Source of the DNA: [Clostridium] ultunense DSM 10521
GTDB lineage: Bacteria > Bacillota > Clostridia > Tissierellales > Tepidimicrobiaceae
Direction of reading: 5' to 3'
DNA length: 64,000 nt
NCBI RefSeq assembly: GCF_000511955.1
Contig: NZ_AZSU01000002.1
Location: 302,223 to 366,222 of the forward strand
In this document: one piece after another, positions 34,862 to 55,108 of the stretch
Layout: each line of letters starts with the position of its first letter
Numbering within the stretch: the first letter of the stretch is position 1
Notes under the pieces: model-generated
What the model was told of the DNA's origin: nothing
Seen by the model: only the letters and a program-made list of their open reading frames with translations
Database searches by the model: none
Position numbers and translations under genes: made by a program

Positions 34862-34890
34862 AAAACCCCTCCCTTCTTAAATTTTGGTAC

Positions 34891-36000: not shown

Positions 36001-36034
36001 AATTTTGCTTTTCAATATATAAGGGGTGGTAAAT

Positions 36035-37309
36035 GTGAATAAAATTGTACTAAAAGGGGATATAGTTTTTACTCCAGATAAGGACAATTTTAAGACCTAT
36101 AAAAATTCCTATTTAGTGGCAGAAGAAGGGAAGGTAATAGGAATATATAGGAAGTTGAAGGAGGAATTTAAGTCTTATCCTATTAAGGACTTTACAGAAA
36201 AGTTAATAATCCCAGGGTTTGTTGATATACATCTCCATGCCCCTCAGTATCCTAATCGAGGATTAGGATATGATGAGGAATTAATACCTTGGTTGGATAC
36301 CTATACCTTTCCTGAAGAGGCTAAGTATGATGATTTAGATTATGCTAAAAAAGTTTATAAAAGAGTAGTTAAGGACTTATGGAGACATGGAACTACTAGT
36401 GCCATAGTCTATAGTAGTATTTATAAGGAGAGTACTAAACTTTTAATGGAACTGTTTATCGAAGCAAATTTAAGAGCCTATATAGGAAAGGTAAATATGG
36501 ATAGAAATACATCAGATAAGCTTAAAGAAGATACGGAAAAATCCCTATTGGATACAGAGGAGATTATATTAGAGTATAAGGACAGATCAACTTTAGTAAA
36601 ACCTATAATTACTCCAAGGTTTGTACCTACTTGTACAAGCGATCTTATGGAAGGGTTAGGGAATTTAGCCATGAAATATGGTATTCCAGTCCAATCCCAT
36701 TTAAGTGAGAATAGGCAGGAGGTGGAGTGGGTCAATAGACTTCATCCAGATTTAAAGGATTATGCTTCTGTCTATAATGAATATAATCTATTTGGTCAGA
36801 CTAAGACCATAATGGCCCATTGTATATATAATACTCAGGAGGAAATGGATTTAATGGCAAAAAATCAAGTCTTTGCCGCCCATTGTCCTTATTCCAATTA
36901 TAATCTTTCCAGTGGAATAATGCCAGTAAGGAAATTTTTAGATAGGGGAATTCCAGTAGGTTTAGGTTCCGATATATCTGGTGGTCATAATCTAAGTATC
37001 CCAAATATAATGGTGGGGGCTATACAGGCTTCTAAGATGAAATGGCTACATACTAATAAGGGATTAAAACCTTTAACCAGTTCCGAAGCCTTCTTCTTAG
37101 GAACTAAAGGAGGAGGTAGTTTCTTCGGAAAGGTAGGCAGTTTTGAAGAAGGATACGCTTTGGATGCATTGATAATAGACGATTCTACCCTAGGGGATAC
37201 AGAAGGATTATCCTTAGAAGAAAGGGTCCAAAGATTCATATATATTGGTGATGATAGGAATATTGTAGAAATATATGTTGAAGGTAAAAAGGTCGATGAA
37301 CCCATGTAG
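36035..37309 (+). CDS. guaD: Guanine deaminase
   Basis: 424 aa from GTG 36035 (AAGGGGTGG upstream). Amidohydrolase-superfamily signatures: GFVDIHLHAPQYPNRGLGYD (metal HxH and guanine-deaminase PQ motif, ~59-78), QSHLSEN, IMAHCIY, FAAHCPYSNYNLSSG and LGSDISGGH (last metal Asp). Hydrolyses guanine to xanthine plus ammonia in the cytoplasm. It is followed 59 nt later by pucR and opens the purine supercluster, supplying xanthine to the compartment operon downstream. Confidence 0.93.
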   Translation: MNKIVLKGDIVFTPDKDNFKTYKNSYLVAEEGKVIGIYRKLKEEFKSYPIKDFTEKLIIPGFVDIHLHAPQYPNRGLGYDEELIPWLDTYTFPEEAKYDDLDYAKKVYKRVVKDLWRHGTTSAIVYSSIYKESTKLLMELFIEANLRAYIGKVNMDRNTSDKLKEDTEKSLLDTEEIILEYKDRSTLVKPIITPRFVPTCTSDLMEGLGNLAMKYGIPVQSHLSENRQEVEWVNRLHPDLKDYASVYNEYNLFGQTKTIMAHCIYNTQEEMDLMAKNQVFAAHCPYSNYNLSSGIMPVRKFLDRGIPVGLGSDISGGHNLSIPNIMVGAIQASKMKWLHTNKGLKPLTSSEAFFLGTKGGGSFFGKVGSFEEGYALDALIIDDSTLGDTEGLSLEERVQRFIYIGDDRNIVEIYVEGKKVDEPM

Positions 37310-39078: not shown

Positions 39079-39774
39079 CTACTCTTCTACCAAACCTACT
39101 GCTCTTATGGGAGAGCCGGAGCCGTCTCTTATTTTTAATGGTAGGCCAATATATAGAAATCTTTTGTTTACCACCTGGTCTAAATTACATAGGTTTTCCG
39201 TATTGGTAATATTGTATTCTCCACATACCAAATGGCCAGAGAATCTGATATCGTCGGGGGTTTGGTCTATGGCTGGAGCATCTACTCCTATATTTACTAC
39301 TCCTTTTTCGGCTAACCATTTAGCCCCTTCGTAGCTTAATCCTGTATAGTCGGTTTGAAATTTATCCGTTCCATAGGTTCTATTATGATGGCCTGTATAT
39401 AATAGGACTATATCTCCTTTTTTGATCTCTTGTCCAGATTTCTTTTCAGCTTCTTCTAAATCCTTTGGCTCTATGTAGTCTGGATATCTAATATGGCTTA
39501 AATCAATACAGATGGCACTACCCCAAAAATATTCTAAAGGCATTTTATCAATGGTAGGGCCTCCTGGTTTGAATTCAGAAACTCCATCGCTATGGGTGCC
39601 ACAATGTTCAGATATAAGGAGATTTCTAGCAGAGAAACCAACAGTAGGGCTCCCAGTCATTTCCATATTTTCTTCATGGCTCATATTGGTCATAATAAAG
39701 GTTTTCTGATGCATTGGGAAAACGGACATGCCTTGGAAGATCTCCTGGGATAGATCGATTAATTTTAATCCCAT
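39079..39774 (-). CDS. Cyclase-family metal-dependent hydrolase, candidate imidazolone ring-opening enzyme
   Basis: 231 aa, kynurenine formamidase/isatin hydrolase family. The metal motif HCGTHSDG (~residues 57-64), GDIVLLYTGHHNRTYG and GVDAPAIDQ are present. Members hydrolyse cyclic or linear amides; isatin hydrolase opens a lactam ring. Divergent from the BMC operon with 225 bp between them. In the clostridial xanthine pathway the ring opening of 4-imidazolone to formiminoglycine is the lactam-type step that lacks an obvious enzyme here, so this gene is my candidate. RBS GAAAGGGG before ATG 39774. The family call is firm; the substrate is inference. Confidence 0.75.
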   Translation of the reverse strand: MGLKLIDLSQEIFQGMSVFPMHQKTFIMTNMSHEENMEMTGSPTVGFSARNLLISEHCGTHSDGVSEFKPGGPTIDKMPLEYFWGSAICIDLSHIRYPDYIEPKDLEEAEKKSGQEIKKGDIVLLYTGHHNRTYGTDKFQTDYTGLSYEGAKWLAEKGVVNIGVDAPAIDQTPDDIRFSGHLVCGEYNITNTENLCNLDQVVNKRFLYIGLPLKIRDGSGSPIRAVGLVEE

Positions 39775-39999
39775 AATTATTCCCCTTTCATTAATTCTAT
39801 TCTTATACTTTAATTATAACTATCCTAAAGGGAAGTTCTTTATATAAAACCCACAAAAGTATTAGATGAGTTTCACAAAACCCTTTGATGGATTAATTTA
39901 ATATGGGGATTTTTTTATAGGATATTAACAAAGTCTATTTCCAAATATTATGCTATTATGTTTGAAATGGATTTCCATAATATAAAAGGGGGTTTTAAA

Positions 40000-41412
40000 A
40001 TGTATCAAGTTATAGTAAAGAACGCTAGAATCCCACAAGGAGATGAAACAGTACTAACCAATATATTGATTAAAGATGAGAGGATTGCAGGATTTGTAGA
40101 TGGGATTGATGGTATAGAGGCTGAAGAAATAATCGATGCTGAAGGTCATTTAACTTTACCTGGATGTATAGATTCCCATACCCATTTCATGGATCCAGGG
40201 TTTACCCATAGAGAGAATTTCCTAACGGGAACTTCTTCAGCAGCAGCAGGTGGTTTAACTACTATTGTTGACATGCCTTGTTGCTCCGTTCCTTCAGTAA
40301 GATCTATTCCTGAGCTAGAAAATAAATTGGAGAAAATTAAGGATAAGGCTATAATCGATTATGGTTTTTGGGGTGGGGTTACGGGGGAAGATGTAAGGGA
40401 AGGCTGGCTTCATAATGTTAAAGAACAAGCAGATTATGGAGTAATTGGTTTTAAAGTATATATGACTCCTTCAGTACCTACCTATCCAAGAGTTACAGAT
40501 CCAGAAATGTATGAAGCCTTTAAAGCAGTGGCAGAGACGGGACTTCCTATTGGTATCCATGCTGAGAATTTTGCCATATGTGATTATTTTGTGAAAAAGT
40601 TTCAAAAAGAAGGAAGAATGGATGGACCAGCTTGGGCTGAGGCTAGAATGGAACTAGCAGAAAAAGTTGCAATCCAATTGGGAATAAGTTTTGCTGAAGA
40701 TACGGGGGCAAGACTTCATATTGTCCATATGAGTACAGGAATAGGGGCTAAGTTGGTTAAGGAGGCCAAATTAAGAGGGTTAGATGTGACTAGTGAAACC
40801 TGTCCTCATTATCTAACTTTAAACTACGAAGAAGCTATGAGTGAATATGGTGCCTTTGCTAAGATTGCACCACCTTTAAGGACTAAAAGGGATAATAAAG
40901 AATTATGGGAAGGGCTAAGGGATGGTAGTGTAGATTTTATCGCCACAGACCACGCTCCATATCATATAGAAGATGAAAAGGCTAAAAAAGGTATGAATAT
41001 ATGGACAGCATTCCCAGGAATACCTGGAGTTGAGACTATGGTACCTATTATAGTTAGTGAAGGGTATAACAAGGGAAGGATTTCCCTATCAAAAATGGTA
41101 GAAATACTTAGTACCAATGCAGCTATCCACTATGGATTATATCCAAAGAAAGGTAGCTTGAATATTGGCGCTGATGCAGATTTAACCATTATAGATTTAG
41201 ATAAGGAATGGGCAATAGATCAGGAAAAAACCTACAGTATGGCTAAATATAATCCTTTACATGGATTGAAATTAAAAGGAAAAGTAGCCAAGACTGTAGT
41301 TAGAGGTAAGGTAGTATTTGATGAGAAGGAAGGAATTACAGTAAAAGAAGGCTATGGTCAATTTGTAAAAAGACAGAGTATACAAAAATTAGATAAAAAG
41401 ATTAAATTTTGA
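40000..41412 (+). CDS. Dihydropyrimidinase/allantoinase-like amidohydrolase, candidate xanthine amidohydrolase
   Basis: 470 aa from ATG 40000 (AAAGGGGG upstream; the longer frame lacks an RBS). Cyclic-amidohydrolase metal ligands are in place: CIDSHTHFMDPG, the carboxylated Lys in GVIGFKVYM, GIHAENF, LHIVHMSTG and FIATDHAPYH. First gene of the microcompartment operon. In the xanthine pathway of purinolytic clostridia the pyrimidine ring of xanthine is opened to 4-ureido-5-imidazolecarboxylate by an amidohydrolase, the reaction type of this family. The basic amphipathic tail after GYGQ (FVKRQSIQKLDKKIKF) could be an encapsulation peptide. Allantoinase or hydantoinase are alternatives. Confidence 0.85.
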   Translation: MYQVIVKNARIPQGDETVLTNILIKDERIAGFVDGIDGIEAEEIIDAEGHLTLPGCIDSHTHFMDPGFTHRENFLTGTSSAAAGGLTTIVDMPCCSVPSVRSIPELENKLEKIKDKAIIDYGFWGGVTGEDVREGWLHNVKEQADYGVIGFKVYMTPSVPTYPRVTDPEMYEAFKAVAETGLPIGIHAENFAICDYFVKKFQKEGRMDGPAWAEARMELAEKVAIQLGISFAEDTGARLHIVHMSTGIGAKLVKEAKLRGLDVTSETCPHYLTLNYEEAMSEYGAFAKIAPPLRTKRDNKELWEGLRDGSVDFIATDHAPYHIEDEKAKKGMNIWTAFPGIPGVETMVPIIVSEGYNKGRISLSKMVEILSTNAAIHYGLYPKKGSLNIGADADLTIIDLDKEWAIDQEKTYSMAKYNPLHGLKLKGKVAKTVVRGKVVFDEKEGITVKEGYGQFVKRQSIQKLDKKIKF

Positions 41413-41423
41413 GGGGGATTATA

Positions 41424-42035
41424 ATGACAAGGCATGCTATTTTAGTTATAGATATGTTAAATGATTTTGCCAATGAAAAGGGAGCTTTATATTGTCCTGG
41501 AGCTGCTAGGATAACTAAAAACCTTCAAGAATTATTGAAATGGGCAAGAGATAGGAAAGCTGAAGGAAAAGATGATGTTCAAATAGTTCATATCCAAGAA
41601 GCCCATAGGGAAGATGATGCAGATTTTAGAGTTAGACCTCGTCATGCAGTTAGAGGAACCTGGGGTTCAGATTTTATAGAAGAATTATATCCAGAAAGAG
41701 GAGAATATATTGTACCTAAGAGAAGACATAGCGGCTTTGCTTATACGGATTTAGACCTATATTTAAGGGAGGAGGGCATAGATACAGTAGTGGTAACAGG
41801 GGTATGGACTAATGTATGTGTAAGGAGTACAGCTACCGATGCTCTAGCTAGGGCCTATAAGGTTATTACATTAAGTGATGGATGCGATTCTAAGACGGAA
41901 GAGATGCATGAATACGGGTTGAAGGATTTAAGTATCTTTAGCAAGGTGATGACCATAGATGAATATATAGACGCCTGGCAAAAAGGCCTAGACCCATGGG
42001 AAGGCGGCGGAGATCCAGAGAATAAGGTGGAATAA
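41424..42035 (+). CDS. Isochorismatase-family cysteine hydrolase, candidate ureidoimidazole-carboxylate amidohydrolase
   Basis: 203 aa from ATG 41424 (GAGGGGGA upstream). Catalytic triad visible: Asp in LVIDMLNDFA (~10), Lys in IVPKRRHSGF (~95) and Cys in GVWTNVCVRSTATDAL (~133). Closest functional types are N-carbamoylsarcosine amidase and biuret hydrolase, which remove carbamoyl groups. Here it would turn 4-ureido-5-imidazolecarboxylate into 4-amino-5-imidazolecarboxylate, CO2 and ammonia. Second gene of the BMC operon, 11 nt after the amidohydrolase. Confidence 0.85.
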   Translation: MTRHAILVIDMLNDFANEKGALYCPGAARITKNLQELLKWARDRKAEGKDDVQIVHIQEAHREDDADFRVRPRHAVRGTWGSDFIEELYPERGEYIVPKRRHSGFAYTDLDLYLREEGIDTVVVTGVWTNVCVRSTATDALARAYKVITLSDGCDSKTEEMHEYGLKDLSIFSKVMTIDEYIDAWQKGLDPWEGGGDPENKVE

Positions 42036-42062: not shown

Positions 42063-42620
42063 ATGAAAATAGTGGTTGGAATATCTGGGGGAAGTGGTTC
42101 TATTTATGCAGTATCCCTTTTAAAGGCCCTTCAACAATTGGATATAGAAACCCATCTAGTGGTGACTACTATGGGAGGATATGTGACGGAACATGAATGT
42201 GGAATAGGTTTAGAGGAATTAAAAGGTATGGCTACCTATTTTCATGATAATAAAAATTTTGCTGCTCCAATAGCCAGTGGGTCTTTTAAGGTAGATGGAA
42301 TGGTGGTAATTCCTTGCTCCATGAAAACATTGTCCTCCGTTGCTAATGGGTTTTCCGATAGTCTACTTACTAGGGCATGTGATGTGACTATTAAGGAGAA
42401 AAGGAAGATGGTATTGGTACCAAGGGAGACTCCCCTAAGCCCTATACATTTAGAAAATATGCTGAAATTGTCTAAAATAGGGGTTACCATTTTTCCCCCT
42501 AGTCCTGGCTTTTATAATCATCCGGAATCCATTGAGGATATAGTCTTAAATATGACAGGAAGAATATTGGATATGTTGGGTATAGATAATAATTTGGTAA
42601 ATAGGTGGAAGGGTCAGTAG
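42063..42620 (+). CDS. ubiX: UbiX-type flavin prenyltransferase
   Basis: 185 aa. FMN-binding GISGGSGSIYAV at the N-terminus, IPCSMKTLSSVANGFSDSLL (~84-103) and the signature LVPRETPLSPIHLENMLKL (~120-138). Makes prenylated FMN for UbiD decarboxylases. Directly upstream of a UbiD gene (15-nt gap), which confirms the pairing. In this operon it would serve aminoimidazole-carboxylate decarboxylation. Confidence 0.92.
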   Translation: MKIVVGISGGSGSIYAVSLLKALQQLDIETHLVVTTMGGYVTEHECGIGLEELKGMATYFHDNKNFAAPIASGSFKVDGMVVIPCSMKTLSSVANGFSDSLLTRACDVTIKEKRKMVLVPRETPLSPIHLENMLKLSKIGVTIFPPSPGFYNHPESIEDIVLNMTGRILDMLGIDNNLVNRWKGQ

Positions 42621-42635
42621 AAGGGAGGGGATTTG

Positions 42636-43988
42636 TTGGAGAGGCAAATGCTTAGATATACCTTAGAAGAATTGAGAAGTATGGGAGAGCTTTTAGTATG
42701 TGATAGGGAAGTAAATTCAGAATATGAATTAGGGGCAGTTTTAAAATATTTTAGGAATAAAAGGCCTATTCTATTCAATAAGGTTAAAGGAAGCACCCTT
42801 AAGGGTGCAGGAGGTCTTTATGGAAATAGAGAAATACTATATAAGCTGCTACATATAAATCATGAGAACCGATTGTTTAAATTTATGGATGCTATTGCTA
42901 ACCCTAAATCCTATAAAGTAGTAGATGGAGGCCCAGTAAAGGAGAATATAATACGAAGAAACATTGATTTACCTAAAATATTCCCTATTCCTAAATTTCA
43001 ACAAAAGGATTCTTCTAGTTTTATTACTGCAGGGGTGTTGGTGGTAAAGGATCCAGAGACGGGTAAATATTTTACCTCTATTAGGAGATTCCAAGTAAAC
43101 GGAAGGAACCAGCTTTCAGCTCTTATAGCTTCCTCAAAACTTACTGGGGATTTTCTAAAACTAGAAAAGGAAAATAAGCCTTTGGAAGTAGCCATAGTTC
43201 TTGGTTATGATGCTCTCTTTTTAATGGCTAGTCAAATAAGTTCTGCTACTTATGGAGTAGATAAATACCAGATAGATAGTGCCTTAAGGGGAGAACCATT
43301 AGAATTAGTACCTTGTGAAACTGTAGATTTACTGGTGCCAGCCTATTGTGAAATAGTACTAGAGGGTAGGATAGTTCCAGGAAAGAGGGAAATGGAAGGT
43401 CCCTTTGGAGAATTAATGGGCTATTATGGCGGGGTAGCACCTCATCCAATTATTGAAGTAGATGCTATTATGCATAGGGATGACCCTATATTTCAAATTG
43501 CATTTCCTTGTAGAGAGGAGCATCTTTCTAACGGCCTTATAAGGGAAGTGGAATTATATAACCAATTAAAAAATCAGGTTAATGTAATAGATGTAAACGT
43601 TACAGAAGGAGGAGGCTATAGGTTTAATGCTTTTGCTTCCATAGATAAACAGAAGGAGGGCGACGGGAAATCGGCTATTATAGCAGCTTTAGGTTCTAAT
43701 AAGGATTTAAAACAGGTGGTAATCGTAGATGGAGATGTGGATATATTTGATCTTCAGGATATAGAATGGGCTATTACTACTAGGACTCAAGGCAGTCAGG
43801 ATTTTGTAGTTATACCAGGAGCCTTAGGTTCATCCTTAGAACCTTCCCACCATTTGAGAGGAATAACGGATAAGGTAGGAATTGATGCTACTAAACCTTT
43901 AGGAGAGAAGGCCATTGAGTTTGAAAGGGCTATAATCCCAGGGCATGAAAATATAGATATTAGTAGGTATTTCCCAAATATTGTATAG
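42636..43988 (+). CDS. ubiD: UbiD-family prFMN decarboxylase, candidate 4-amino-5-imidazolecarboxylate decarboxylase
   Basis: 450 aa from TTG 42636 (AAGGGAGGGG upstream). UbiD landmarks: PKIFPIPKFQQKDSSSFITA (prFMN/metal region), the Arg-containing TSIRRFQV, MEGPFGELMGYYGG (catalytic Glu region ~250) and DVDIFDLQDIEWAITTRTQG (~365-385). Removes carboxylate from aromatic or heteroaromatic acids. Between ureido hydrolase and shell genes it fits decarboxylation of 4-amino-5-imidazolecarboxylate to 4-aminoimidazole. Substrate is inferred from pathway order, not from active-site reading. Confidence 0.9.
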   Translation: MERQMLRYTLEELRSMGELLVCDREVNSEYELGAVLKYFRNKRPILFNKVKGSTLKGAGGLYGNREILYKLLHINHENRLFKFMDAIANPKSYKVVDGGPVKENIIRRNIDLPKIFPIPKFQQKDSSSFITAGVLVVKDPETGKYFTSIRRFQVNGRNQLSALIASSKLTGDFLKLEKENKPLEVAIVLGYDALFLMASQISSATYGVDKYQIDSALRGEPLELVPCETVDLLVPAYCEIVLEGRIVPGKREMEGPFGELMGYYGGVAPHPIIEVDAIMHRDDPIFQIAFPCREEHLSNGLIREVELYNQLKNQVNVIDVNVTEGGGYRFNAFASIDKQKEGDGKSAIIAALGSNKDLKQVVIVDGDVDIFDLQDIEWAITTRTQGSQDFVVIPGALGSSLEPSHHLRGITDKVGIDATKPLGEKAIEFERAIIPGHENIDISRYFPNIV

Positions 43989-44003: not shown

Positions 44004-44267
44004 ATGAAGGAAGCTATAGGGATGGTAGAAACTAGATCTTTGGTAGGAGCCATCCAGGCTGCAGATGCAATGGTTAAAGCTGCCAATGTTAAGGTTTTGG
44101 ATTTTCAGTTTGTAGGTTCTGGACTAGTGGCAGTTACCGTTACAGGAGATGTGGCTGCAGTGAAGGCAGCTGTTGAATCTGGTGAAGAAGAAGCAGCTAA
44201 GGTAGCAGAAGTCATCTCCACTAATGTAATACCAAGGCCTCATGATGAAGTGGATAAAATATTTTAG
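44004..44267 (+). CDS. BMC-H shell hexamer protein 1
   Basis: 87-aa single-domain (Pf00936) shell protein. AIGMVETRSLVGAIQAADAM, the pore-loop region [18 protein letters not shown] and the conserved end [10 protein letters not shown]. Forms hexagonal tiles of a microcompartment shell, passing small polar metabolites through the central pore. Starts 15 nt after ubiD with AAGGTGAGG. First of three BMC-H genes; sequences differ at the pore, suggesting different permeabilities. Confidence 0.95.
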   Translation: MKEAIGMVETRSLVGAIQAADAMVKAANVKVLDFQFVGSGLVAVTVTGDVAAVKAAVESGEEEAAKVAEVISTNVIPRPHDEVDKIF

Positions 44268-44524: not shown

Positions 44525-44893
44525 ATGGAAAAAGCTGTAGGACTTATTGAAGCATTAGGCCTTACTACTGCCGTTTCTGCATTAGACGCAGCTAGTAAAG
44601 CAGCAGATATAACCTTAATAGGGTTAGAGAAGGTAATCGGAGTAGGCAAGGCAGTTGGTGTAAATATTCAAATTGCAGGGGAAGTAGCAGCGGTAAAGGC
44701 GGCAGTAGAGGCAGGGGTGGAGGCAGGTAATAGGGTAGGGACTATAATTGCCAGCCATGTAATACCAAGGCCTCATGATGAGGTAGATAAATTAATTGAA
44801 AGATTTACCGAAAATTTGAAAGAGAATAAAGCTAAAGGGGAAAGAAAGGAAGAAGTGAAAACTAAAAATGAAAAATCAAATAAGGAGGAATAA
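44525..44893 (+). CDS. BMC-H shell protein 2 with charged C-terminal tail
   Basis: 122 aa: a normal ~92-residue BMC-H domain ([20 protein letters not shown] ... [16 protein letters not shown]) followed by a ~30-residue tail rich in Lys and Glu ([20 protein letters not shown]). The pore region reads [10 protein letters not shown], longer and more hydrophobic than in the other two. The tail probably projects from one hexamer face, where it could recruit cargo or the 73-aa protein. AAAGGAGG upstream. Confidence 0.93.
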
Positions 44894-44895: not shown

Positions 44896-45174
44896 ATGAG
44901 TCAAGCTTTAGGTTTAGTTGAAACAAAAGGATTGGTAGGTTCAATAGAGGCAGCAGATGCTATGGTAAAGGCTGCTAATGTAACTTTAGTTGCTTATGAA
45001 AAGATAGGTTTTGGTCTTGTTACCGTAATGGTAAGGGGAGATGTAGGAGCAGTTAAGGCAGCTGTAGATGCAGGAGCAGAGGCAGCTAGGGCTGTAGGAG
45101 AACTCCATTCTGTCCACGTAATACCAAGACCTCACTCAGAAGTCGAGAGAGTTATTTTAAAACAATTTGAATAA
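44896..45174 (+). CDS. BMC-H shell hexamer protein 3
   Basis: 92-aa canonical [24 protein letters not shown], pore [20 protein letters not shown] and ending [13 protein letters not shown]. Begins two bases after the previous stop (TAAGC-ATG; RBS AAGGAGG inside the previous gene). The most typical of the three and likely the major facet protein. Confidence 0.95.
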
Positions 45175-45193: not shown

Positions 45194-45937
45194 ATGGTTA
45201 AAAATAAAATAACTTTAAATATTTTGGCAGATATAACTAAAAAAATTGGAAAAGTAGATTCTACCCCATCAGATAATAGAATTTTAGTAGTTTTTACCGG
45301 TTCTAATATTGAATTAGATGAAAGAATAGAAGAATTAAAGCAATTAAAGGGAAAGGGTATGGATTTTTCACTGGCTTTCTCTTTTATGGGGGAAAGGATT
45401 TTAAATGTAGAAAGTATAATCAATTCTTTAAATCCTATAGAAATATATAGGGAAGAAGATATATTTCAATTAGAGAAAATAGTAGAAAAACATTCCTCTA
45501 TTATTGGACCAAATATTACCATGAATACTCTATCTAAGGTGTCTTTAGGTATGATAGATAGTTTCGCACCTAATATTATTTGGACTTTCCTATATAAGGG
45601 GAAGCCAGCATATTTAGACTTTACTTCTACAAGAAACTATTTAGGAGCTCCATCGAAGAATAAGGAAATAAAAGATATTATAGAAAATTATATTGATAAA
45701 TTAAAAAGGATGGGAGCAATGGAAATAAAGACAGGAAGTTATGGGGTGCAAATACTGAAGGACCAGGACTTTACTATTCAAAAGGGGGAAAATGGTTTTA
45801 ATAAGGTAATTACTGAAAGGGATTTGATTAACTATAACTTAAGGGAGTCATTAATACTGCCAAAGGGTACAATAATTACCCCTTTGGCAAAGGATAGGGC
45901 TAAGGAATTAGGGATTAAAATAGAAATAGAAAAATAG
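45194..45937 (+). CDS. BMC-associated flavoprotein-like protein with a PduM-like C-terminus
   Basis: 247 aa. The middle (~40-165) reads like the UbiX/Dfp flavoprotein fold (ILVVFTGSNIEL; IIGPNITMNTLSKVSLGMID; NIIWTFLYKGKPAYLDF). The last ~50 residues (LPKGTIITPLAKDRAKELGI) match the motif found at the end of PduM/EutQ-associated BMC proteins. No enzymatic activity is established for these; they may organise the core or bind a flavin. Sits between the last BMC-H and the BMC-P gene. The N-terminal helix (ITLNILADITKKIGKV) is amphipathic. Confidence 0.65.
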   Translation: MVKNKITLNILADITKKIGKVDSTPSDNRILVVFTGSNIELDERIEELKQLKGKGMDFSLAFSFMGERILNVESIINSLNPIEIYREEDIFQLEKIVEKHSSIIGPNITMNTLSKVSLGMIDSFAPNIIWTFLYKGKPAYLDFTSTRNYLGAPSKNKEIKDIIENYIDKLKRMGAMEIKTGSYGVQILKDQDFTIQKGENGFNKVITERDLINYNLRESLILPKGTIITPLAKDRAKELGIKIEIEK

Positions 45938-45951: not shown

Positions 45952-46242
45952 ATGTATTTAGGCAAGGTAATTGGAACTATAGTGGCAACAAGGAAGGACG
46001 AAAATTTAATTGGTTCAAAACTTATGATTACCCAACCTCTAAATATGGAGTTAGAACCAATAGGTGAACCATTAATTGCCGTAGATACAGTAGGAGCAGG
46101 AATAGGAGAATTAGTAATCTTCACCAAAGGGACTGCAGCAAGAATAGCAGCCAGAAAAATGGATGCCCCTATAGATATTTCCATAGTAGGAATAGTAGAC
46201 CAGTTGACAATTGACCATTGGGACAACAGGGACGGTTCCTAA
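45952..46242 (+). CDS. BMC-P (EutN/CcmL) vertex pentamer protein
   Basis: 96 aa. EutN/CcmL signatures: YLGKVIGTIVATRKDENLIG at the start, PLIAVDTVGAGIGELVIF (~residues 45-62) and VGIVDQL at the end of the core. Caps the 12 vertices of the shell. The last nine residues (HWDNRDGS and stop) are encoded by the beginning of a GGGACA-type repeat, so the native C-terminus appears to have been replaced. GGGAGGGG upstream. Last gene of the BMC operon; no second pentamer gene is seen. Confidence 0.95.
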   Translation: MYLGKVIGTIVATRKDENLIGSKLMITQPLNMELEPIGEPLIAVDTVGAGIGELVIFTKGTAARIAARKMDAPIDISIVGIVDQLTIDHWDNRDGS

Positions 46243-46387: not shown

Positions 46388-46431
46388 GGGGAATGTCAAT
46401 TATCATACATTAAATAGAAAGGGGGATGGGA

Positions 46432-48240
46432 TTGGAAACTAAATATCTAAAGATGTCTATGGAGTATAGAAATTTAATCGACATACTTATGAGTGATAAG
46501 GATTATGCAGATATTGTTCTATATGATGGAGAAATTGTAAATGTTATCACCAGGGAAATTTATAGAGGGGATATTGCCATAAAAGAAAAATATATTTTAT
46601 TAGTAGGGGATTGTAAGGATTTAATTGGGCCAGATACTTTAGTTATAGATGTAAAGGGCAAATATTTATCTCCTGGCTTCATTGATTCCCATATGCATTT
46701 TGAATCCAGTATGCTTACGGTAACAGAGTTTTCTAGATTATCTATTCCTTCTGGGACTACTACCTTAATTGCGGATCCCCATGAAATAGGGAATGCATTA
46801 GGACCAGTTGGGATGAAGGCTATGGCCGATGAGATAGACTCGGTCCCTAACAAAGTACATCTTGTAGTTCCAGCATTAACCCCAGATTGTCCTGATTTGG
46901 AAACTGCAGGCTATGATACTAGTTCTAAGGATATGGAGGATTTACTGAATTATAAACATATTATTGGAATAGGAGAATTGCAAGGTTTTAGCAATGCAAA
47001 ACATGTTTATAGAAATACTCCAGAGATAATTACAGATCTGCTGGCTTCCACTATATACGCTAAATCTAAGAATATGGTGGTAGATGGGAATGCACCTGAG
47101 CTATTTGGTGCTGAGTTAGCAGCCCATATAATATCCACTGGAGGAAAATGTTCTTGCCATGAAACTACTACTAAAGAAGAAGCAGTAGAAAAACTGCGGC
47201 AAGGAGTCTACCTATTTATGAGGGAAGGCTCTACCCAGAGGAATATGGCTGAATGTATTAGGGCAGTTACAGAAGAAAAAATGGATTCTAGAAGATGTAT
47301 TTTAGCTACAGATGATATGGTAGCAGCTGATTTAGAGACTATAGGCCATATGAATGAAATTGTAAGAAGAACTATAAAAGAAGGAGTAAACCCTGTAGAG
47401 GCTATTCAGATGGTTACCATAAATCCAGCTACCTATTTTGGATTAGATGATGTTGGAGTGTTGGCTCCTGGCAAGATTGCAGATATAGCCATTATAGATG
47501 ATTTAGAAGAGATGGTAGTAGAAGGGGTTTTCATAGATGGAAAGTTGGTAGCTTCGAAAGGAGAATTATTGATAGATTTACCTACCTATACCTATCCGGA
47601 ACAGGTGAAAAACTCTGTTAAAATTGGACCTATTTCTGAAAAAGATTTAGAAATAAGAGCAGAGGGAAGTACAGCAAAGGTACGATGTATAGAGGTTATT
47701 CCAGATCAAAACTTAACAGGGAAATTAGAAGAGACGGTAAAGGTATATAACGGAGTAGCTGAACCAGATGTATCGATGGATACATTGCAAATAGCTTGTA
47801 TAGAAAGGTATGGTAGAACAGGCAATATTGGCAAGGCATTTGTAAAGGGCTTTGGAATGAGAAATGGGGCCTTTGCCGAGTCAGTAGCCCATGATACCCA
47901 TAATATAATTGTGGTAGGTACTAATATTGGAGATATGACTTTGGCTGTAAATAGAGTCATAGAACTAGGTGGAGGTATTGCAATAGCCAATAAGGGAAGG
48001 ATATTATCTGATATGAGGCTGGCAGTAGGTGGATTGATTACTGACGAATTAGATGGACATGAAGTAAGTAGTAAAATTGCAGAATTGGAAAGGATAGTAA
48101 AAGAAGATTTAGGATGTAAAATCCATGCACCATTTATGCATCTATCCTTCTTAGCCTTATCCACATCACCAACATGGAAAATCACTGACAAAGGCCTAAT
48201 AGATGTGAACAACTTTAAAATTCTTCCACCAATAGTTTAA
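46432..48240 (+). CDS. Divergent adenine-deaminase-family amidohydrolase, candidate 4-aminoimidazole deaminase
   Basis: 602 aa from TTG 46432 (the ATG six bases earlier touches the RBS AAAGGGGG). Adenine-deaminase architecture: GFIDSHMHFESSML, DPHEIGNALG, bridging Glu in GIGELQ, CHETTT, REGSTQRNMAE and TDDMV. Compared with the canonical paralog at 53.4 kb, the conserved DGH motif is DGN here (VVDGNAP), the DDKHP stretch is lost (DDMVAADL), and it is ~30 residues longer. An altered metal/substrate pocket suggests another amine substrate. Its place right after the shell genes makes 4-aminoimidazole deamination to 4-imidazolone a reasonable hypothesis; an unusual adenine deaminase is the alternative. 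Confidence 0.75.
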   Translation: METKYLKMSMEYRNLIDILMSDKDYADIVLYDGEIVNVITREIYRGDIAIKEKYILLVGDCKDLIGPDTLVIDVKGKYLSPGFIDSHMHFESSMLTVTEFSRLSIPSGTTTLIADPHEIGNALGPVGMKAMADEIDSVPNKVHLVVPALTPDCPDLETAGYDTSSKDMEDLLNYKHIIGIGELQGFSNAKHVYRNTPEIITDLLASTIYAKSKNMVVDGNAPELFGAELAAHIISTGGKCSCHETTTKEEAVEKLRQGVYLFMREGSTQRNMAECIRAVTEEKMDSRRCILATDDMVAADLETIGHMNEIVRRTIKEGVNPVEAIQMVTINPATYFGLDDVGVLAPGKIADIAIIDDLEEMVVEGVFIDGKLVASKGELLIDLPTYTYPEQVKNSVKIGPISEKDLEIRAEGSTAKVRCIEVIPDQNLTGKLEETVKVYNGVAEPDVSMDTLQIACIERYGRTGNIGKAFVKGFGMRNGAFAESVAHDTHNIIVVGTNIGDMTLAVNRVIELGGGIAIANKGRILSDMRLAVGGLITDELDGHEVSSKIAELERIVKEDLGCKIHAPFMHLSFLALSTSPTWKITDKGLIDVNNFKILPPIV

Positions 48241-48355: not shown

Positions 48356-48412
48356 AAGTGGAAAGGGGGATAGTAGATTATTGCCATTATTACAAATTAA
48401 AGGGGGATGGTT

Positions 48413-49747
48413 ATGCCAACTAAAACTGTGAGTAATGTAGGTTTTTTTGAAAGACAGTTTAAACTTAGTGAACATAATACGGATGTAAAGACGGAAATTT
48501 TAGCGGGTATTACAACTTTTATGACTATGGCCTATATTTTAATCGTAAATCCTAATATGTTAGCAGAAACGGGAATGGATTGGGGGGGAGTATTTACAGC
48601 CACGGCCGTATCATCTATAATTGCTACCCTTATAATGGCCTTTTTAGCCAATTATCCTTTTGCATTAGCTCCTGGTATGGGACTTAACGCTTTCTTTACC
48701 TATTCAGTAGTATTTGGAATGAGTAAATCCTGGCAGTTTGCTTTAACTGCAGTATTTATTGAGGGGATTATATTTATCATATTATCTCTATTTAAAGTTA
48801 GGGAGGCTATATTCGATGCTATTCCGATGAATTTGAAAAAGGCAGTATCAGTAGGTATAGGGTTGTTTATTGCACTAATAGGTTTTGTTAATGCAGGTAT
48901 AGTAGTAGCTGAAGGTGGGACTATAGTTAGCTTAGGAATTTTAACGGATAGAGGGCCTTTATTAGCTTTAATTGGCTTATTAATAATGGGAGTATTATTG
49001 GCTAAAAATGTTAAAGGAGCTTTATTAATTGGTATCATTGCAGCTACCCTAATTGGTATTCCTATGGGGATTACACCTCTTCCAGAGGGGGTATTTAAAG
49101 CGCCTCCATCGGTAAGTCAAGTAGCTTTCCAATTTGAATGGTCTAATATATTTACATGGGAAATGTTAATAGTAGTCTTCACCTTCTTATTTGTAGATGT
49201 ATTCGATACAGTAGGAACTTTAGTAGGAGTAGCCTCTAAGGCAGATATGTTAGACGAAGAAGGTAAACTTCCAAGGGTTAGTCAGGCTTTATTTGCCGAT
49301 GCAGTAGGTACAGTGGCGGGGGCTTGTTTAGGAACTAGTACGGTGACTACATATGTAGAATCAGCCTCTGGAGTAGCCGATGGTGGTAGAACTGGTCTTA
49401 CTGCCTTATCTACAGCTGCAATGTTTTTCTTAGCCCTATTCTTCTCTCCAATTTTCGGTATGATTCCAGGGCAGGCTACAGCACCGGCTCTAATTATTGT
49501 TGGACTTTTTATGATGAGCCCAATAAGGGATATTGATTTAGAGGATTTTACAGAAGCCATACCAGCATTTTTAACCATAGTAATGATGCCCTTTGCCTAT
49601 AGTATTGCAGAAGGTATAGTCTTTGGTATGGTTTCCTATGTACTGTTAAAATTGATAACTGGCAAACATAAGGATATTTCATTAGTAATGTATATACTAG
49701 CAGTTCTATTCATACTAAAAAATATACTTCCTTTGATTTTTAATTAA
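48413..49747 (+). CDS. NCS2/AzgA-type purine nucleobase permease
   Basis: 444 aa from ATG 48413 (AAAGGGGGATGG). AzgA/PbuG-like: ITTFMTMAYILIVNPNMLAE near the start, NYPFALAPGMGLNAFFTYSV (~80-100), DVFDTVGTLVGVASKA (~262) and GACLGTSTVTTYVESASGVA (~303). Around 12-14 helices. Imports adenine, guanine or hypoxanthine with protons. Between two deaminase/hydroxylase blocks, it should feed the purine pathway. I see no purine riboswitch upstream. Confidence 0.9.
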   Translation: MPTKTVSNVGFFERQFKLSEHNTDVKTEILAGITTFMTMAYILIVNPNMLAETGMDWGGVFTATAVSSIIATLIMAFLANYPFALAPGMGLNAFFTYSVVFGMSKSWQFALTAVFIEGIIFIILSLFKVREAIFDAIPMNLKKAVSVGIGLFIALIGFVNAGIVVAEGGTIVSLGILTDRGPLLALIGLLIMGVLLAKNVKGALLIGIIAATLIGIPMGITPLPEGVFKAPPSVSQVAFQFEWSNIFTWEMLIVVFTFLFVDVFDTVGTLVGVASKADMLDEEGKLPRVSQALFADAVGTVAGACLGTSTVTTYVESASGVADGGRTGLTALSTAAMFFLALFFSPIFGMIPGQATAPALIIVGLFMMSPIRDIDLEDFTEAIPAFLTIVMMPFAYSIAEGIVFGMVSYVLLKLITGKHKDISLVMYILAVLFILKNILPLIFN

Positions 49748-49786: not shown

Positions 49787-49819
49787 TCACAAAGTTTTAT
49801 GGAAGGAGGTCATAAAAAG

Positions 49820-50677
49820 ATGCAAGCTTATAGAGGTAAAACCATAGAAGAAGTCATCCAATTATTAGCTAAATATAAGGGAAAGGTTATCGCTGGAGGT
49901 ACGGATTTAATTATTGATTTGAGAAATGGAAAATTAACCTCAGATACATTGATAGATATATCTAGTATTGAAGAATTAAGAAGAGTTGAGGAATATGATG
50001 AGACAATAAATATAGGTGCTGCAACTACCTTTACCCAGATAATAGAAAATCCCTTATTTCAGGAAAACCTATATGGATTGAAGAGGGCCTGTAATACAGT
50101 TGGTTCTCCTCAGATAAGGAATAAAGGTACTATAGGTGGAAATATTGCCAACGGCTCTCCTGCTGCCGATTCCATACCTCCCCTTCTCTGTTTGGACAGT
50201 ATCATAGTTCTAGAAAGTATAAAGGGGAAAAGGGAAATAGGTCTAGAGGATTACTATAAAGATAATATTTCCATTAAAGAGGATGAGCTCATAATCTCTG
50301 TCCAATTTAAAAAACCTGATAAAGGTCAGATACTATCCTTTGCTAAATTAGGCCTTAGGAAGGCTTTAGCCATATCTAGATTGTCCATTGCTACTTTATT
50401 GGAATTGGATGAGAATAATAAAGTGAAAACCATAAAAATAGCTAGTGGTTCTTTGGGAAGGTATCCTATGAGGGAACCTATAGTAGAAGAATTTTTATTA
50501 GGAAGGGAATTAACAGTAGATGTAACGGATAAGGCAGTAAAAGTACTACAGCAGGTTATGGGTGAAAGATTAGGGGGAAGGTCAACTTTACCTTATAAGA
50601 GAATAGCCGTAGAGAGGATATTCAAGGAGGCTTTAGGCGATGGACTCAAAAGGCTAAAGGGGGTAGAGATATGGTAG
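49820..50677 (+). CDS. Molybdenum hydroxylase FAD-binding subunit (XdhB/NdhF type)
   Basis: 285 aa from ATG 49820 (GGAAGGAGG; an earlier in-frame ATG overlaps that RBS). FAD-binding domain of the CO-dehydrogenase/xanthine dehydrogenase flavoprotein family: KVIAGGTDLIIDLRNGKL (~23-40), RNKGTIGGNIANGSPAADS (~100-118) and LGLRKALAISRLS. Passes electrons from the Fe-S subunit to NAD(P) or another acceptor. First of four overlapping or adjacent genes forming one enzyme. Size matches the FAD subunit of nicotinate dehydrogenase (~33 kDa). Confidence 0.9.
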   Translation: MQAYRGKTIEEVIQLLAKYKGKVIAGGTDLIIDLRNGKLTSDTLIDISSIEELRRVEEYDETINIGAATTFTQIIENPLFQENLYGLKRACNTVGSPQIRNKGTIGGNIANGSPAADSIPPLLCLDSIIVLESIKGKREIGLEDYYKDNISIKEDELIISVQFKKPDKGQILSFAKLGLRKALAISRLSIATLLELDENNKVKTIKIASGSLGRYPMREPIVEEFLLGRELTVDVTDKAVKVLQQVMGERLGGRSTLPYKRIAVERIFKEALGDGLKRLKGVEIW

Positions 50678-51129
50678 AGATTAAATTAAAGGTAAATGGC
50701 AAAAGTTATATCTTAGAAATAGAAGAGGATATGAGGTTATTAGACTTGCTTCGGGAGAAATTAGGTCTCTTAGGAGTGAAGGAAGGTTGTAGTGAAGGAG
50801 AATGTGGGGCTTGTACTGTAATAATGGATGGGAAAGTAGTAAATTCTTGCCTGGTAATGGCTTTCCAAGCTGAAGGTAGTAGCATTACTACTATAGAAGG
50901 TCTTGAAAAAGAAGGAGAAATCCACCCTATACAACAGGCCTTCATAGAAGTAGGAGCAGTCCAATGTGGATATTGTACACCAGGAATGATCCTTTCTGCT
51001 AAGGCCTTACTCGATAAGAATCCTAATCCTACTGAAGAGGAGATTAGAGAAGGCATATCAGGTAATCTATGTAGATGCACTGGATACAATAAGATTATCC
51101 AAGCTGTGGAGAAAGGGAAGGGGGTGTAG
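50671..51129 (+). CDS. Molybdenum hydroxylase [2Fe-2S] subunit
   Basis: 152 aa. Plant-type ferredoxin cluster CSEGECGACTVIMDGKVVNSC (residues ~38-58; cysteines at positions 1, 6, 9 and 21 of that stretch) and the second, helical-domain cluster QCGYCTPGM ... GNLCRCTGY. Conducts electrons from the molybdenum site to FAD. Overlaps the FAD gene by 7 nt and is followed after two bases by the Mo subunit. Confidence 0.95.
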   Translation: MVEIKLKVNGKSYILEIEEDMRLLDLLREKLGLLGVKEGCSEGECGACTVIMDGKVVNSCLVMAFQAEGSSITTIEGLEKEGEIHPIQQAFIEVGAVQCGYCTPGMILSAKALLDKNPNPTEEEIREGISGNLCRCTGYNKIIQAVEKGKGV

Positions 51130-51131
51130 CT

Positions 51132-52397
51132 ATGAACCTGGATATAGTAGGTAGGAATATTTTAAGGATAGATGCCTTAAGCAAGGTCACTGGTAAGGCC
51201 TTATATCCTGAGGATATATTTATGGATAATATGGTCTATGGTAAAACCTTAAGGTCTAAAGTACCCCATGCCTATATTAGGATAGATACGGGAAAAGCGG
51301 AAAAAATAGATGGAGTAATTAAAGTTTTGACCCATAAGGATGTACCCAATAATGAACATGGGGTAATATTTAAAGATCATGAGGTATTCTGTAGTGAAAA
51401 GGTGCGGAGGATTGGAGATCCAATAGCTTTTGTAGTTGCCAAGAATAAAAAAATATGCGAATTAGCATTGAAGGAAATCCTTATAGAATATGAGGAAATA
51501 GAAGAGGTTTTTTGTCCAATAAAAGCTATGAAGGAGGATTCGCCTAAGGTACATGGAGATACTAATATAGTATACCATTATAAGATTAGAAAAGGTGATG
51601 TGGAAGAAGGTTTTAAAAATAGTTATGCCATTGCAGAAAATATTTATAGAACCCATATGGTAGACCATGCTTTTTTACAACCTGAAGCAGGGATATCTTT
51701 TATAGATGAGGAAGGTAGGGTTACCGTAATGGTAGCTACCCAATACCCCCATTATGATAGGGAGGAAATAGCCTCTGCACTGGAATTATCGGAAGAAAAG
51801 GTAAGAATAATCAATACCAATATAGGAGGGGCCTTTGGTGGTAGAGAAGATATTAGCCTTCAAATCCATTTAGCCTTAGCAGCAAAAGTTTTAAATAGAC
51901 CAATAAAAGCTATATATTCTAGGGAAGAATCTTTTATTGCCCATGCTAAAAGGCATTCTATGATAATGAAATATAAAACAGGAGCAGATAGAGATGGAAA
52001 ACTATTAGCTATGGAAGCAGAAATAGTTGGGGACACAGGGGCTTATGCTTCATGGGCTACTAATGTTTTAAGAAAATCAGGGGTTCATGCAACAGGTCCC
52101 TATTTTATTCCTAATGTAAAGGTAGATAGTATTGCAGTCTATACCAACAATCCCTTTGCAGGGGCCATGAGGGGGTTTGGTGCTACTCAAGTGCCCATAG
52201 CTCATGAACAACAGATGGATATTTTAGCAGAAAAACTAGGAATAGATCCAATAGCCATTAGGATGAAAAATATATTTAAACAGGGATCTATTACTGCTAC
52301 TGGTCAGGTGCTAACTGATAGTGTGCCCTTAGATAGATGTATAGAAAAAGTGGCAGAGAAAATAGACTTTTCCCTTGAGAGAGAGGAGGCCTATTGA
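51132..52397 (+). CDS. Molybdenum hydroxylase large subunit, N-terminal half (NdhL-like)
   Basis: 421 aa: aldehyde-oxidase a/b hammerhead domain (~15-120) and first molybdopterin-binding domain (~135-375), with NTNIGGAFGGREDISLQIHL (Mo-site Gly-rich loop) and NPFAGAMRGFGATQVPIAHE. It ends at a domain boundary, where single-chain xanthine dehydrogenases would continue. The other half is a separate gene overlapping by 4 nt. Eubacterium barkeri nicotinate dehydrogenase has the same division into a ~50-kDa and a ~37-kDa Mo subunit. The sequence after the TGA carries a second TGA, so selenocysteine read-through is excluded. Confidence 0.85.
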   Translation: MNLDIVGRNILRIDALSKVTGKALYPEDIFMDNMVYGKTLRSKVPHAYIRIDTGKAEKIDGVIKVLTHKDVPNNEHGVIFKDHEVFCSEKVRRIGDPIAFVVAKNKKICELALKEILIEYEEIEEVFCPIKAMKEDSPKVHGDTNIVYHYKIRKGDVEEGFKNSYAIAENIYRTHMVDHAFLQPEAGISFIDEEGRVTVMVATQYPHYDREEIASALELSEEKVRIINTNIGGAFGGREDISLQIHLALAAKVLNRPIKAIYSREESFIAHAKRHSMIMKYKTGADRDGKLLAMEAEIVGDTGAYASWATNVLRKSGVHATGPYFIPNVKVDSIAVYTNNPFAGAMRGFGATQVPIAHEQQMDILAEKLGIDPIAIRMKNIFKQGSITATGQVLTDSVPLDRCIEKVAEKIDFSLEREEAY

Positions 52398-53398
52398 TGA
52401 AGAAAAGAGGAAGGGGAATAGGATTATCTTTTTATGGAACTGGATATGGAAATGGATTTCCCGATGCATCTAAAGCAAAAGTAAAACTCCTTAAAGATGG
52501 TAAGGTTGGTATATATGTGGGGGGAACTGAGGTAGGTCAGGGAGCTAAAACCGTTCTTTCTCAAATTGGATCAGAAACTTTAAAATTGCCTCTAGATAAA
52601 ATAATATTTATTTCCGAAGACACTAGCCTAATGCCTGACTCAGGTACAGCAGCTGCCAGTCGCCAAACCTATAATACGGGAAATGCTATAAAGATAGCCT
52701 GTGAGAATTTTAAAAATAGATTGAGGGAAGCAGCTAGGGAGCAGTTAAAATTAAATGCAATCCATGGATTAACTGTGGAAAAGGGAGAAATATATTTAGA
52801 GTTTTTTCCTCAAAAAAGAATTTCCTTTAAAGAATTGTCCAAAATCTATGGTGATGATAATATAGAAGCAGAAGGCGAGTTCATTGCTCAAACGATAGAG
52901 ATGGATCCGGAAACTGGGCAAGGAGCTCCTTATTGGCCTTATACTTTCAATGCCTGTGGAGTAGAGCTAGAAGTGGATACTATTACTGGATTAGTTGAAA
53001 TAGAAAGGGCAGTTTTTGCTCAAGATGTAGGAAGAGCGATTAATCCCCATCTAGTAGAAGGACAAATGGATGGAGGTTTTGCCATGGCTTTAGGTTATGT
53101 TTTATTTGAAGATTTAAAACTGGAAAAGGGTAAAATATATAATAATAAGTTTTCAAAATATTTAATACCAACGGCCATGGATATGATTCAGATAGAAAAT
53201 ATAATAGTAGAAGAACCAGAGTATACAGCTCCCTTTGGTGCTAAAGGTATAGGAGAACCAGTGATGATACCTGTAGGGCCTGCCATATTAAATGCTATTT
53301 ATGATGCCATAGGGGTAAGGATTACTGAACTGCCTGTTACCCCCGAAAGGTTAATTAAGGCCATAGAAGAGGATGGAAAGAAGAAAGAGGAGATATAG
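52394..53398 (+). CDS. Molybdenum hydroxylase medium subunit, C-terminal half (NdhM-like)
   Basis: 334 aa, start TTG 52394 or ATG 52397, with GAGAGAGGAGG upstream inside the previous gene: a proper RBS, which argues for a true split rather than a frameshift. Contains the second molybdopterin-binding domain: GTEVGQGAKTVLSQIGSETL (~50-69), DTSLMPDSGTAAASRQTY and, near the end, PFGAKGIGEPVMIPVGPAIL with the catalytic Glu in the GxGE motif. Completes the Mo active site with the large subunit. Substrate probably hypoxanthine, xanthine or purine from context; nicotinate is the architectural precedent. Confidence 0.88.
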   Translation: MMKKRGRGIGLSFYGTGYGNGFPDASKAKVKLLKDGKVGIYVGGTEVGQGAKTVLSQIGSETLKLPLDKIIFISEDTSLMPDSGTAAASRQTYNTGNAIKIACENFKNRLREAAREQLKLNAIHGLTVEKGEIYLEFFPQKRISFKELSKIYGDDNIEAEGEFIAQTIEMDPETGQGAPYWPYTFNACGVELEVDTITGLVEIERAVFAQDVGRAINPHLVEGQMDGGFAMALGYVLFEDLKLEKGKIYNNKFSKYLIPTAMDMIQIENIIVEEPEYTAPFGAKGIGEPVMIPVGPAILNAIYDAIGVRITELPVTPERLIKAIEEDGKKKEEI

Positions 53399-55108
53399 AT
53401 GGAAAGAATTATAAAGATTGCTAAAGGAGAAATAAAAGCAGAATTGGTATTAAAGAATGCCAATATAATCAATGTATTCACTAATGAAATAATTAAAGGT
53501 GATATAGCTATTGAAAGAGGAAAGATAATAGGCATTGGTGAATATGAAGGCATAGAAGAGATGGATTTAGAAGGAAAATATCTATCTCCTGGATTCATAG
53601 ATTCCCATGTCCATATTGAATCCTCTATGGTAACTCCTGGTCAATTTGCAAAGGCTATTTTACCAAGGGGAGTCACTGCTGTAGTTACCGATCCTCATGA
53701 GATAGCTAATGTAAAGGGAATTGAGGGAATAAAATATATGCTAGATGAAAGCCAAGACCTACCTTTAGATGTATATGTAATGTTGCCTAGCTGTGTTCCT
53801 TCAACTCCCTTTGAAAATGCAGGAGCTGTACTTGAAGCAGAGGATTTAGAGAAATTGATGAATGAAGAAAGGGTTTTAGGCCTAGGAGAGATGATGAATT
53901 ATCCAGGAGTTATAGGGGGAGATGAAAAGGTACTAAAGAAACTGGATTTATTTCAAGATAAGGTTATAGATGGTCATGGACCTCTTATTACAGCCAAAGA
54001 ATTAAATGCCTATGTAGCTGCAGGAGTAAAAACGGAACATGAATGTTCTACAAAGGAAGAGATGATAGAAAGACTTAGGCTAGGGATGTACATCCATATT
54101 AGAGAAGGCTCTGCAGCTAGGAATTTGAAAGAATTGATTAAGGTAGTGGATAAAGATAATTTAAGAAGATGTTTATTTTGTACTGATGATAAACATCCTG
54201 GGGATCTATTAGTAGATGGGAGTATTGATCATAATATAAGACTAGCTATAAAAGAGGGAATAGACCCTATAGATTGTATTAAGATGGCTTCCTTAAATCC
54301 AGCAGAAGCTTATGGATTAAAAAGTAAAGGCGCTATAGCTCCTGGATATAAGGCGGATTTAGCAGTTATAGATAACCTAGAGGATTTTAATGTAATAAGG
54401 GTATTTAAGGAAGGTAAATTGGTAGCAGAAAACCATAAACCTTTATTCCAAATTCCAAGTAGGGATAATAGTTCTATGAAGAATACGGTAAATATTAAAA
54501 GAGTCGAAATAGAGAGTTTAAGAATTCCAATTAAAGGCGAAAAGGTAAATGTAATAAAGTTACTCCCTCATAGTTTGATTACAGAAAAGGTAGTAAAGGA
54601 TGTAAAGGATATGGTAGTGGAAGATGGTGCCTTTATAAGGGGAGACAATATATTAAAGGTAGCAGTAATTGAACGACATAATAGGACGGGAAATATTGGT
54701 TTAGCTTTAGTAGAGGATTTTGGTTTAGAAAATGGAGCTATAGCCTCTACCGTAGCCCATGATTCCCATAATATAATAGTAATTGGAGACAATGATGGGG
54801 ATATGCTCTTAGCTATAGAAGAACTGGAAAGGGTTGGAGGAGGGCTAACCATGGTATCGGAAGGGAAAGTGCTGGATACCTTAGCTTTAACTATTGCTGG
54901 CCTTATGTCAGAGGAACCTTTAGAACAGGTGGATAGAAAATTAAATAAGATGTTGGAAATTGCCTACGGGAAACTAAAGGTAAATGAAAACCTAGACCCC
55001 TTTATGACTTTATCTTTCATAGCATTACCTGTAATTCCAGATATTAAGGTAACGGATTTAGGTTTATTCCATGTAGGGGAATTTAAATTCATAAACCTAA
55101 CTGAATAA
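53399..55108 (+). CDS. ade: Adenine deaminase
   Basis: 569 aa, canonical family member. GFIDSHVHIESSMVTPGQFA (~60-79), DPHEIANVKG, PSCVPSTPFENAG, GLGEMMNYPGV, VIDGHGP, EHECSTKEE, REGSAARNLKEL and CTDDKHPGDLL, and a C-terminal domain with HDSHNIIVIG. Hydrolyses adenine to hypoxanthine and ammonia, with Mn/Fe. Starts one base after the NdhM-like stop, so co-translated with the hydroxylase that would act on its product. Its stop codon lies inside palindromic repeat copy D. Confidence 0.95.
   Translation: MERIIKIAKGEIKAELVLKNANIINVFTNEIIKGDIAIERGKIIGIGEYEGIEEMDLEGKYLSPGFIDSHVHIESSMVTPGQFAKAILPRGVTAVVTDPHEIANVKGIEGIKYMLDESQDLPLDVYVMLPSCVPSTPFENAGAVLEAEDLEKLMNEERVLGLGEMMNYPGVIGGDEKVLKKLDLFQDKVIDGHGPLITAKELNAYVAAGVKTEHECSTKEEMIERLRLGMYIHIREGSAARNLKELIKVVDKDNLRRCLFCTDDKHPGDLLVDGSIDHNIRLAIKEGIDPIDCIKMASLNPAEAYGLKSKGAIAPGYKADLAVIDNLEDFNVIRVFKEGKLVAENHKPLFQIPSRDNSSMKNTVNIKRVEIESLRIPIKGEKVNVIKLLPHSLITEKVVKDVKDMVVEDGAFIRGDNILKVAVIERHNRTGNIGLALVEDFGLENGAIASTVAHDSHNIIVIGDNDGDMLLAIEELERVGGGLTMVSEGKVLDTLALTIAGLMSEEPLEQVDRKLNKMLEIAYGKLKVNENLDPFMTLSFIALPVIPDIKVTDLGLFHVGEFKFINLTE

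Follow-up and report, generated by a model that had tools for sequence, protein, structure and literature searches.

Why should one purine locus encode two proteins with the adenine deaminase fold, one of them beside BMC shell genes? The window, i.e., the whole 64,000-nucleotide stretch of [Clostridium] ultunense DSM 10521 that was analysed, contains a canonical adenine deaminase gene with the DGH motif (53399..55108, plus strand, 569 aa) and the gene of a paralog, XauE, a predicted 4-aminoimidazole deaminase (46426..48240, plus strand, 604 aa). They are the only two full-length members of the adenine deaminase family in the source genome. The sequence-only reading from which this work started had placed the beginning of the paralog at 46432, which is an in-frame TTG two codons inside the ORF; the ORF begins at 46426. 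The motif differences that it had described were confirmed in both ORFs: DGN, CHE, and TDDMVAADL in XauE (within VDGNAPELF, CSCHETTT, and LATDDMVAADL) versus DGH, EHE, and TDDKHPGDLL in the canonical copy (within IDGHGPLIT, KTEHECST, and FCTDDKHPGDL).

Both proteins contain the Pfam domains Amidohydro_1 and Adenine_deam_C. With the TIGR01178 'ade' profile, whose cut-off is 472.5 bits, the canonical copy scores 647.3 bits, far over that value, and XauE 482.3 bits, barely passing it. The AlphaFold2 model of XauE, built with 40 aligned sequences (pLDDT 93.6, pTM 0.92), has its best solved matches in 3nqb (Z 45.8, rmsd 2.8 over 578 residues, 30% identity) and the diiron structure 3t81; judged by this model, XauE has the adenine deaminase fold throughout, in both domains. 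One answer to the opening question would be that the locus simply has two adenine deaminases, with XauE perhaps enclosed in the shell and feeding adenine-derived hypoxanthine into the pathway, and the complete fold and the 10 bits by which XauE exceeds the equivalog cut-off speak for it. We nevertheless consider this answer quite improbable, as a canonical ade gene is present in the same locus, and the Xau loci of Bacilli contain the XauE gene with no canonical ade nearby; the phylogeny and the gene partners presented below also argue against it.

The statement of the sequence-only reading that no gene is generally assigned to the deamination of 4-aminoimidazole is out of date. Axen 2014 described the BUF locus type as comprising amidohydrolases, a deaminase, a carboxy-lyase, an isochorismatase, and a formiminotransferase, and Ravcheev 2019, in the passages available, predicted xanthine utilization for it from homologs only, naming the second amidohydrolase, Amet_4572, XauE and giving it the fifth step, the deamination of 4-aminoimidazole; the Xau/BUF locus of these two papers is of the same type and gene content as that in the window. 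According to PMC12507026, a xanthinase gene cluster was recently identified experimentally, with Tong 2023 cited as the source; as it appears there, the cluster represents the same pathway in the same taxa as here, Clostridia and Bacilli. Beyond Ravcheev 2019 and Tong 2023 as cited in PMC12507026, our literature search found no gene for 4-aminoimidazole deamination. The XauE gene itself was thus to be expected, since its role had already been predicted in 2019, and its function in the literature can be called predicted, perhaps proven.

The Xau locus and the proposed pathway

The locus, on the plus strand except for the cyclase gene, can account for every reaction of the Rabinowitz pathway with one candidate enzyme each, the final transferase excepted. 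A guanine deaminase (36026..37309), which feeds xanthine into the pathway, is followed by a PucR-family purine catabolism regulator (37369..39036). The xanthine ring would be opened by a hydantoinase/allantoinase-like amidohydrolase (39958..41412), the predicted xanthine amidohydrolase, and the product would then be decarbamoylated by an isochorismatase-family enzyme resembling RutB and biuret hydrolase (41409..42035), the predicted 4-ureido-5-imidazolecarboxylate hydrolase. Decarboxylation to 4-aminoimidazole would fall to UbiD (42633..43988), the predicted 4-amino-5-imidazolecarboxylate decarboxylase, together with the UbiX flavin prenyltransferase (42063..42620). XauE would next release the amino group of 4-aminoimidazole by hydrolysis with a metal-activated water and the strand-8 aspartate, as adenine deaminase does at C6 of adenine, yielding ammonia and 4-imidazolone. 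Finally, a PF04199 cyclase of the kynurenine formamidase/isatin hydrolase family (39079..39774, minus strand), the predicted 4-imidazolonase acting after XauE, would open the lactam to formiminoglycine, from which a dedicated formiminotransferase would move the formimino group to tetrahydrofolate. The abstract of Tong 2023 is said to report four hydrolases and a prenylated-FMN decarboxylase as characterised.

Between UbiD and XauE lie the genes of three BMC-H shell proteins (44004..44267, 44525..44893, and 44896..45174), a TIGR02536-like BMC-locus protein (45194..45937), and a BMC-P vertex protein (45952..46242), the last directly upstream of XauE at a distance of 183 bp. Among 75 loci of the XauE clade BMC-P is found nearby in 67, and UbiD and the cyclase in 65 each, versus none of the 14 control Ade loci for each of the three. 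The BMC-P gene adjoins the XauE gene in 68 of the 68 loci measured, and XauE starts at a median of 46 bp downstream of it. It is this gene position that suggests that XauE may be encapsulated, in which case the shell would probably hold the decarboxylation and the deamination with their unstable intermediates. An encapsulation peptide at the N terminus of XauE was also considered and is not supported; the BMC-linked proteins showed no extension of their own at this end, members of the clade from BMC-less loci having a comparable N-terminal stretch.

Downstream of XauE there are a xanthine/uracil-family purine permease (48407..49747) and the subunits of a xanthine dehydrogenase-like enzyme (49799..53398), comprising the FAD, FeS, and Mo subunits. 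The Mo subunit (51132-53398) is encoded by two ORFs that overlap and differ in frame; a conserved split gene is likelier than a sequencing error, as the halves are out of frame also in 20 of 26 related loci. It is also worth mentioning that the Xau locus is followed by genes for a diaminopropionate ammonia-lyase and a YgeY-family hydrolase (58663-61132). These enzymes are part of the reductive uric acid pathway (PMC12507026), so that two routes of purine degradation may stand side by side. On the other side, at 33335-35872, the purine locus adjoins a minus-strand gene for an ammonia-lyase of the aromatic amino acid (histidine) type, which neighbours a histidine racemase-like gene that scores below the curated cut-off.

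A ligand replaced in all members of the clade

The sequence-only reading had described all three motifs of XauE as an altered metal site, which holds for DGN and does not hold for CHE and TDDMVAADL. In YerA the metal ligands are His87, His89, Glu179 (bridging), His210, His231, and Asp283 (PMC12133300), and the residues of XauE were matched to them by ligand spacing, not by direct alignment, the strand-5 histidine corresponding to YerA His210. Asn222 of XauE (604-aa numbering; AAT codon at 47089..47091, plus strand) aligns opposite the strand-5 histidine of Atu4426 (3nqb), and DGN is for this reason a true metal-site change. The other five ligands of the binuclear six-ligand site (HxH, E, H, H, D) are kept: His89 and His91, the HxH pair of strand 1 (46690..46698), the bridging Glu184 (46975..46983, a segment that also covers Gln186 of GELQG), His245 of strand 6 (47158..47160), and the strand-8 metal/catalytic aspartates Asp296-Asp297 (47311..47316), all on the plus strand. 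CHE was rejected as a diagnostic motif, because its cysteine merely precedes the ligand and the motif is present in the proven E. coli AdeD, as well as in many GH-type relatives. TDDMVAADL was likewise rejected as a lost metal motif; its aspartates are kept, as in TDDVFPDDL of the adenine deaminase 3nqb.

Among 178 sequences, asparagine occupies the strand-5 position in 125 of 125 relatives with at least 44% identity and histidine in 53 of 53 other adenine deaminases, which argues that the asparagine is not there by chance. The same division is seen in a second motif: GELQG of XauE stands where all GH-type relatives of the set have GEMM, with GExQ in 125/125 members of the paralog group and GExM in 53/53 others. 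One could suppose that the loss of a ligand, one of six, has left a catalytically dead or structural paralog; the remaining five do not vary among the 125 members, however, and the gene is retained across phyla within an otherwise complete pathway, so that this seems extremely improbable. DGN was absent from both proven adenine deaminases examined, E. coli AdeD and Atu4426 (3nqb, 3t81). XauE shares with these two the two-domain fold, five of the six metal ligands, and a conserved Arg266; it differs from them in having Asn222 in place of the strand-5 histidine, in the GELQG motif, in its separate clade, and in an identity of only about 30% to 3nqb. That a paralog of the Ade family can act on another substrate is known from the N6-methyladenine(osine) deaminases YerA and Bh0637 (PMC12133300), although YerA, unlike XauE, keeps all six ligands, including His210.

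The homolog searches took in 398 genomes from the phylum and 120 from the order, and in them the relatives of the paralog (56-100% identity) are separated by a gap from all other adenine deaminases (at most 43%). A scan of GTDB genome contigs, with 80 named loci, adds members of 45-53% identity that also bear the asparagine. In a maximum-likelihood tree of 71 rows the paralogs form a clade of 44 rows with an SH-aLRT of 100 and a stem of 0.87. E. coli AdeD and Atu4426, both included, fall outside it; both are long branches, which makes their exact placement unsure. The protein in the XauE position of Siminovitchia (Bacillus) fordii DSM 16014 (L099), whose genome is among those named in Ravcheev 2019, is 61% identical and belongs to the same clade. 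Three subclades were distinguished: two with BMC, from Bacilli and from Clostridia (the latter including a Calditrichales contig), and a third that is BMC-less. The phylogenetic check proposed in the sequence-only reading, whether BMC-linked Ade sequences form their own clade with asparagine at this position, came out positive; that all members of the clade are linked to a BMC was rejected on account of the BMC-less subclade. In this separate clade the strand-5 histidine and GEMM are replaced in all members, contrary to what would be expected of a second adenine deaminase. XauE, then, lacks two defining traits of adenine deaminases, the six-ligand site and membership in their clade; the fold is shared with them, and so, probably, is the chemistry. 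DGN-type deaminases were also found outside Bacillota, in Mycolicibacterium litorale F4 (L132) at 53% identity and, with the asparagine, on a Thorarchaeota contig (L138) at 44-46% identity; no cyclase gene was seen near the deaminase gene on the latter.

Cyclase and formiminotransferase as partners of XauE

A cyclase of the XauE type, with at least 63% identity to that of the window, is encoded by 40 of the 42 genomes with XauE (in one of the 40 it is a fragment at a contig end) versus none of the 38 whose Ade is exclusively of the GH type, in which no match exceeds 37% (Fisher p 1.6e-20, which overstates independence, the genomes being related). The two XauE genomes without the cyclase are assemblies in many pieces, and each of the three subclades shows the link. 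The second partner is a clade of formiminotransferases found in most clostridial Xau loci and, in BMC-less loci, beside XauE and the cyclase. The source genome encodes a formiminotransferase of the Xau type (G000:C2:399795; L198/L199) about 34 kb beyond the end of the window; being 64% identical to a Xau-type enzyme, as against 41-44% for two ordinary copies, it is likely to be the formiminoglycine formiminotransferase of this genome, located outside the Xau locus. Neither the cyclase nor the formiminotransferase has a role in adenine deamination, and that XauE tracks both also tells against its being a second adenine deaminase.

In the Rabinowitz pathway the conversion of 4-aminoimidazole to 4-imidazolone lies between decarboxylation on one side and lactam opening and formimino transfer on the other. 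The association of XauE with a lactam hydrolase, a formiminotransferase, and, in BMC loci, a decarboxylase brackets this step. The solved relatives of the cyclase are kynurenine formamidase and isatin hydrolase, enzymes whose chemistry is the hydrolysis of amides or of a five-membered lactam, which leaves deamination to XauE. Since one of XauE and the cyclase is hardly ever found without the other, their order cannot be read from genomic context alone, and it could be proposed that XauE is the 4-imidazolonase, or that it both deaminates and opens the ring, with the cyclase doing something else; amidohydrolase-superfamily members that open lactam rings are indeed known. Such a division of labour is unlikely, given that the closest solved relatives of XauE are deaminases and those of the cyclase hydrolyse amides or lactams. 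4-Aminoimidazole as the substrate, which the sequence-only reading had suggested, is thus strongly supported by the context of the locus, the DGN clade, and the pairing with the cyclase and formiminotransferase, and we regard it as highly probable, on the strength of these sequence comparisons, that XauE is the predicted 4-aminoimidazole deaminase of the anaerobic xanthinase pathway.

The same partners bear on the step that follows. In Ravcheev 2019, as far as can be told from locus-tag order and the available text, the imidazolonase is the hydantoinase-like enzyme, whereas the co-occurrence observed here favours the PF04199 cyclase. The former assignment is disfavoured, as the hydantoinase-like enzyme can be missing from genomes that have XauE, the cyclase, and the formiminotransferase. 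Where it is absent, the cyclase is the likelier imidazolonase candidate, which argues against the 2019 assignment.

The BMC-less branch and its significance

The BMC-less DGN branch comprises the loci L116, L117, L131, L132, L137, L146, L147, L149, L150, L152, L153, and L154. The cyclase gene usually adjoins that of the deaminase in this branch, a formiminotransferase and an NCS1 permease often do so, the permease standing beside the XauE-cyclase pair in four BMC-less loci, and L152 has UbiD within the same gene run. The hydantoinase-like enzyme, UbiD, XauE, and the cyclase are all present, and BMC shell genes were not found in the genome, for Thermosyntropha lipolytica (G164/G515), L116, and L148; in T. 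lipolytica the first two are at 73-75% and 44%. Here the pathway may run without a compartment.

In seven genomes with XauE and the cyclase (G213, G188, G212, G047, G516, G517, and G518) the xanthinase-type hydantoinase-like enzyme is absent, and three of them (G516-518) also have no UbiD match, G516 and G518 being small assemblies that may be incomplete. In such genomes, without xanthinase and in three cases without UbiD, the substrate could differ. At least for the BMC-less subclade, XauE might accordingly deaminate some other small amino-heterocycle, imported perhaps by the NCS1-type permease that stands with XauE, the cyclase, and the formiminotransferase. This we hold to be very improbable, because the conserved formiminotransferase and cyclase point to an unchanged chain of products, and BMC-linked and BMC-less members do not differ in their active-site signature. 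A broader proposal is that the DGN clade represents a distinct subfamily of deaminases with an altered metal site, with asparagine as a ligand or with a single metal, and that deaminase, cyclase, and formiminotransferase form a portable, BMC-free module converting an aminoimidazole to a one-carbon unit and glycine, which in some genomes would operate apart from xanthine degradation and draw on a new source of the substrate; it is put forward tentatively, as a possibility about which we have more doubt than conviction.

To the earlier description of the locus this work adds the BMC-less branch, a His-to-Asn change that is invariant in the clade, and the reassignment of the cyclase; part of this may already be reported in Tong 2023, and the passages of Ravcheev 2019 available mention neither the His-to-Asn change nor the BMC-less subclade. 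As the curated 'ade' model calls XauE proteins adenine deaminases, the annotation error is a systematic one. XauE presents an adenine deaminase fold that has been adapted, probably to a five-membered ring, and in which one residue of the metal centre is changed throughout the clade; the likely imidazolonase of the xanthine pathway is now the cyclase instead of the hydantoinase-like enzyme. Clade members without BMC provide a natural comparison for the purpose of the shell, and the pathway as a whole, through the anaerobic breakdown of xanthine and uric acid, is of relevance to purine clearance in the gut and to gout.
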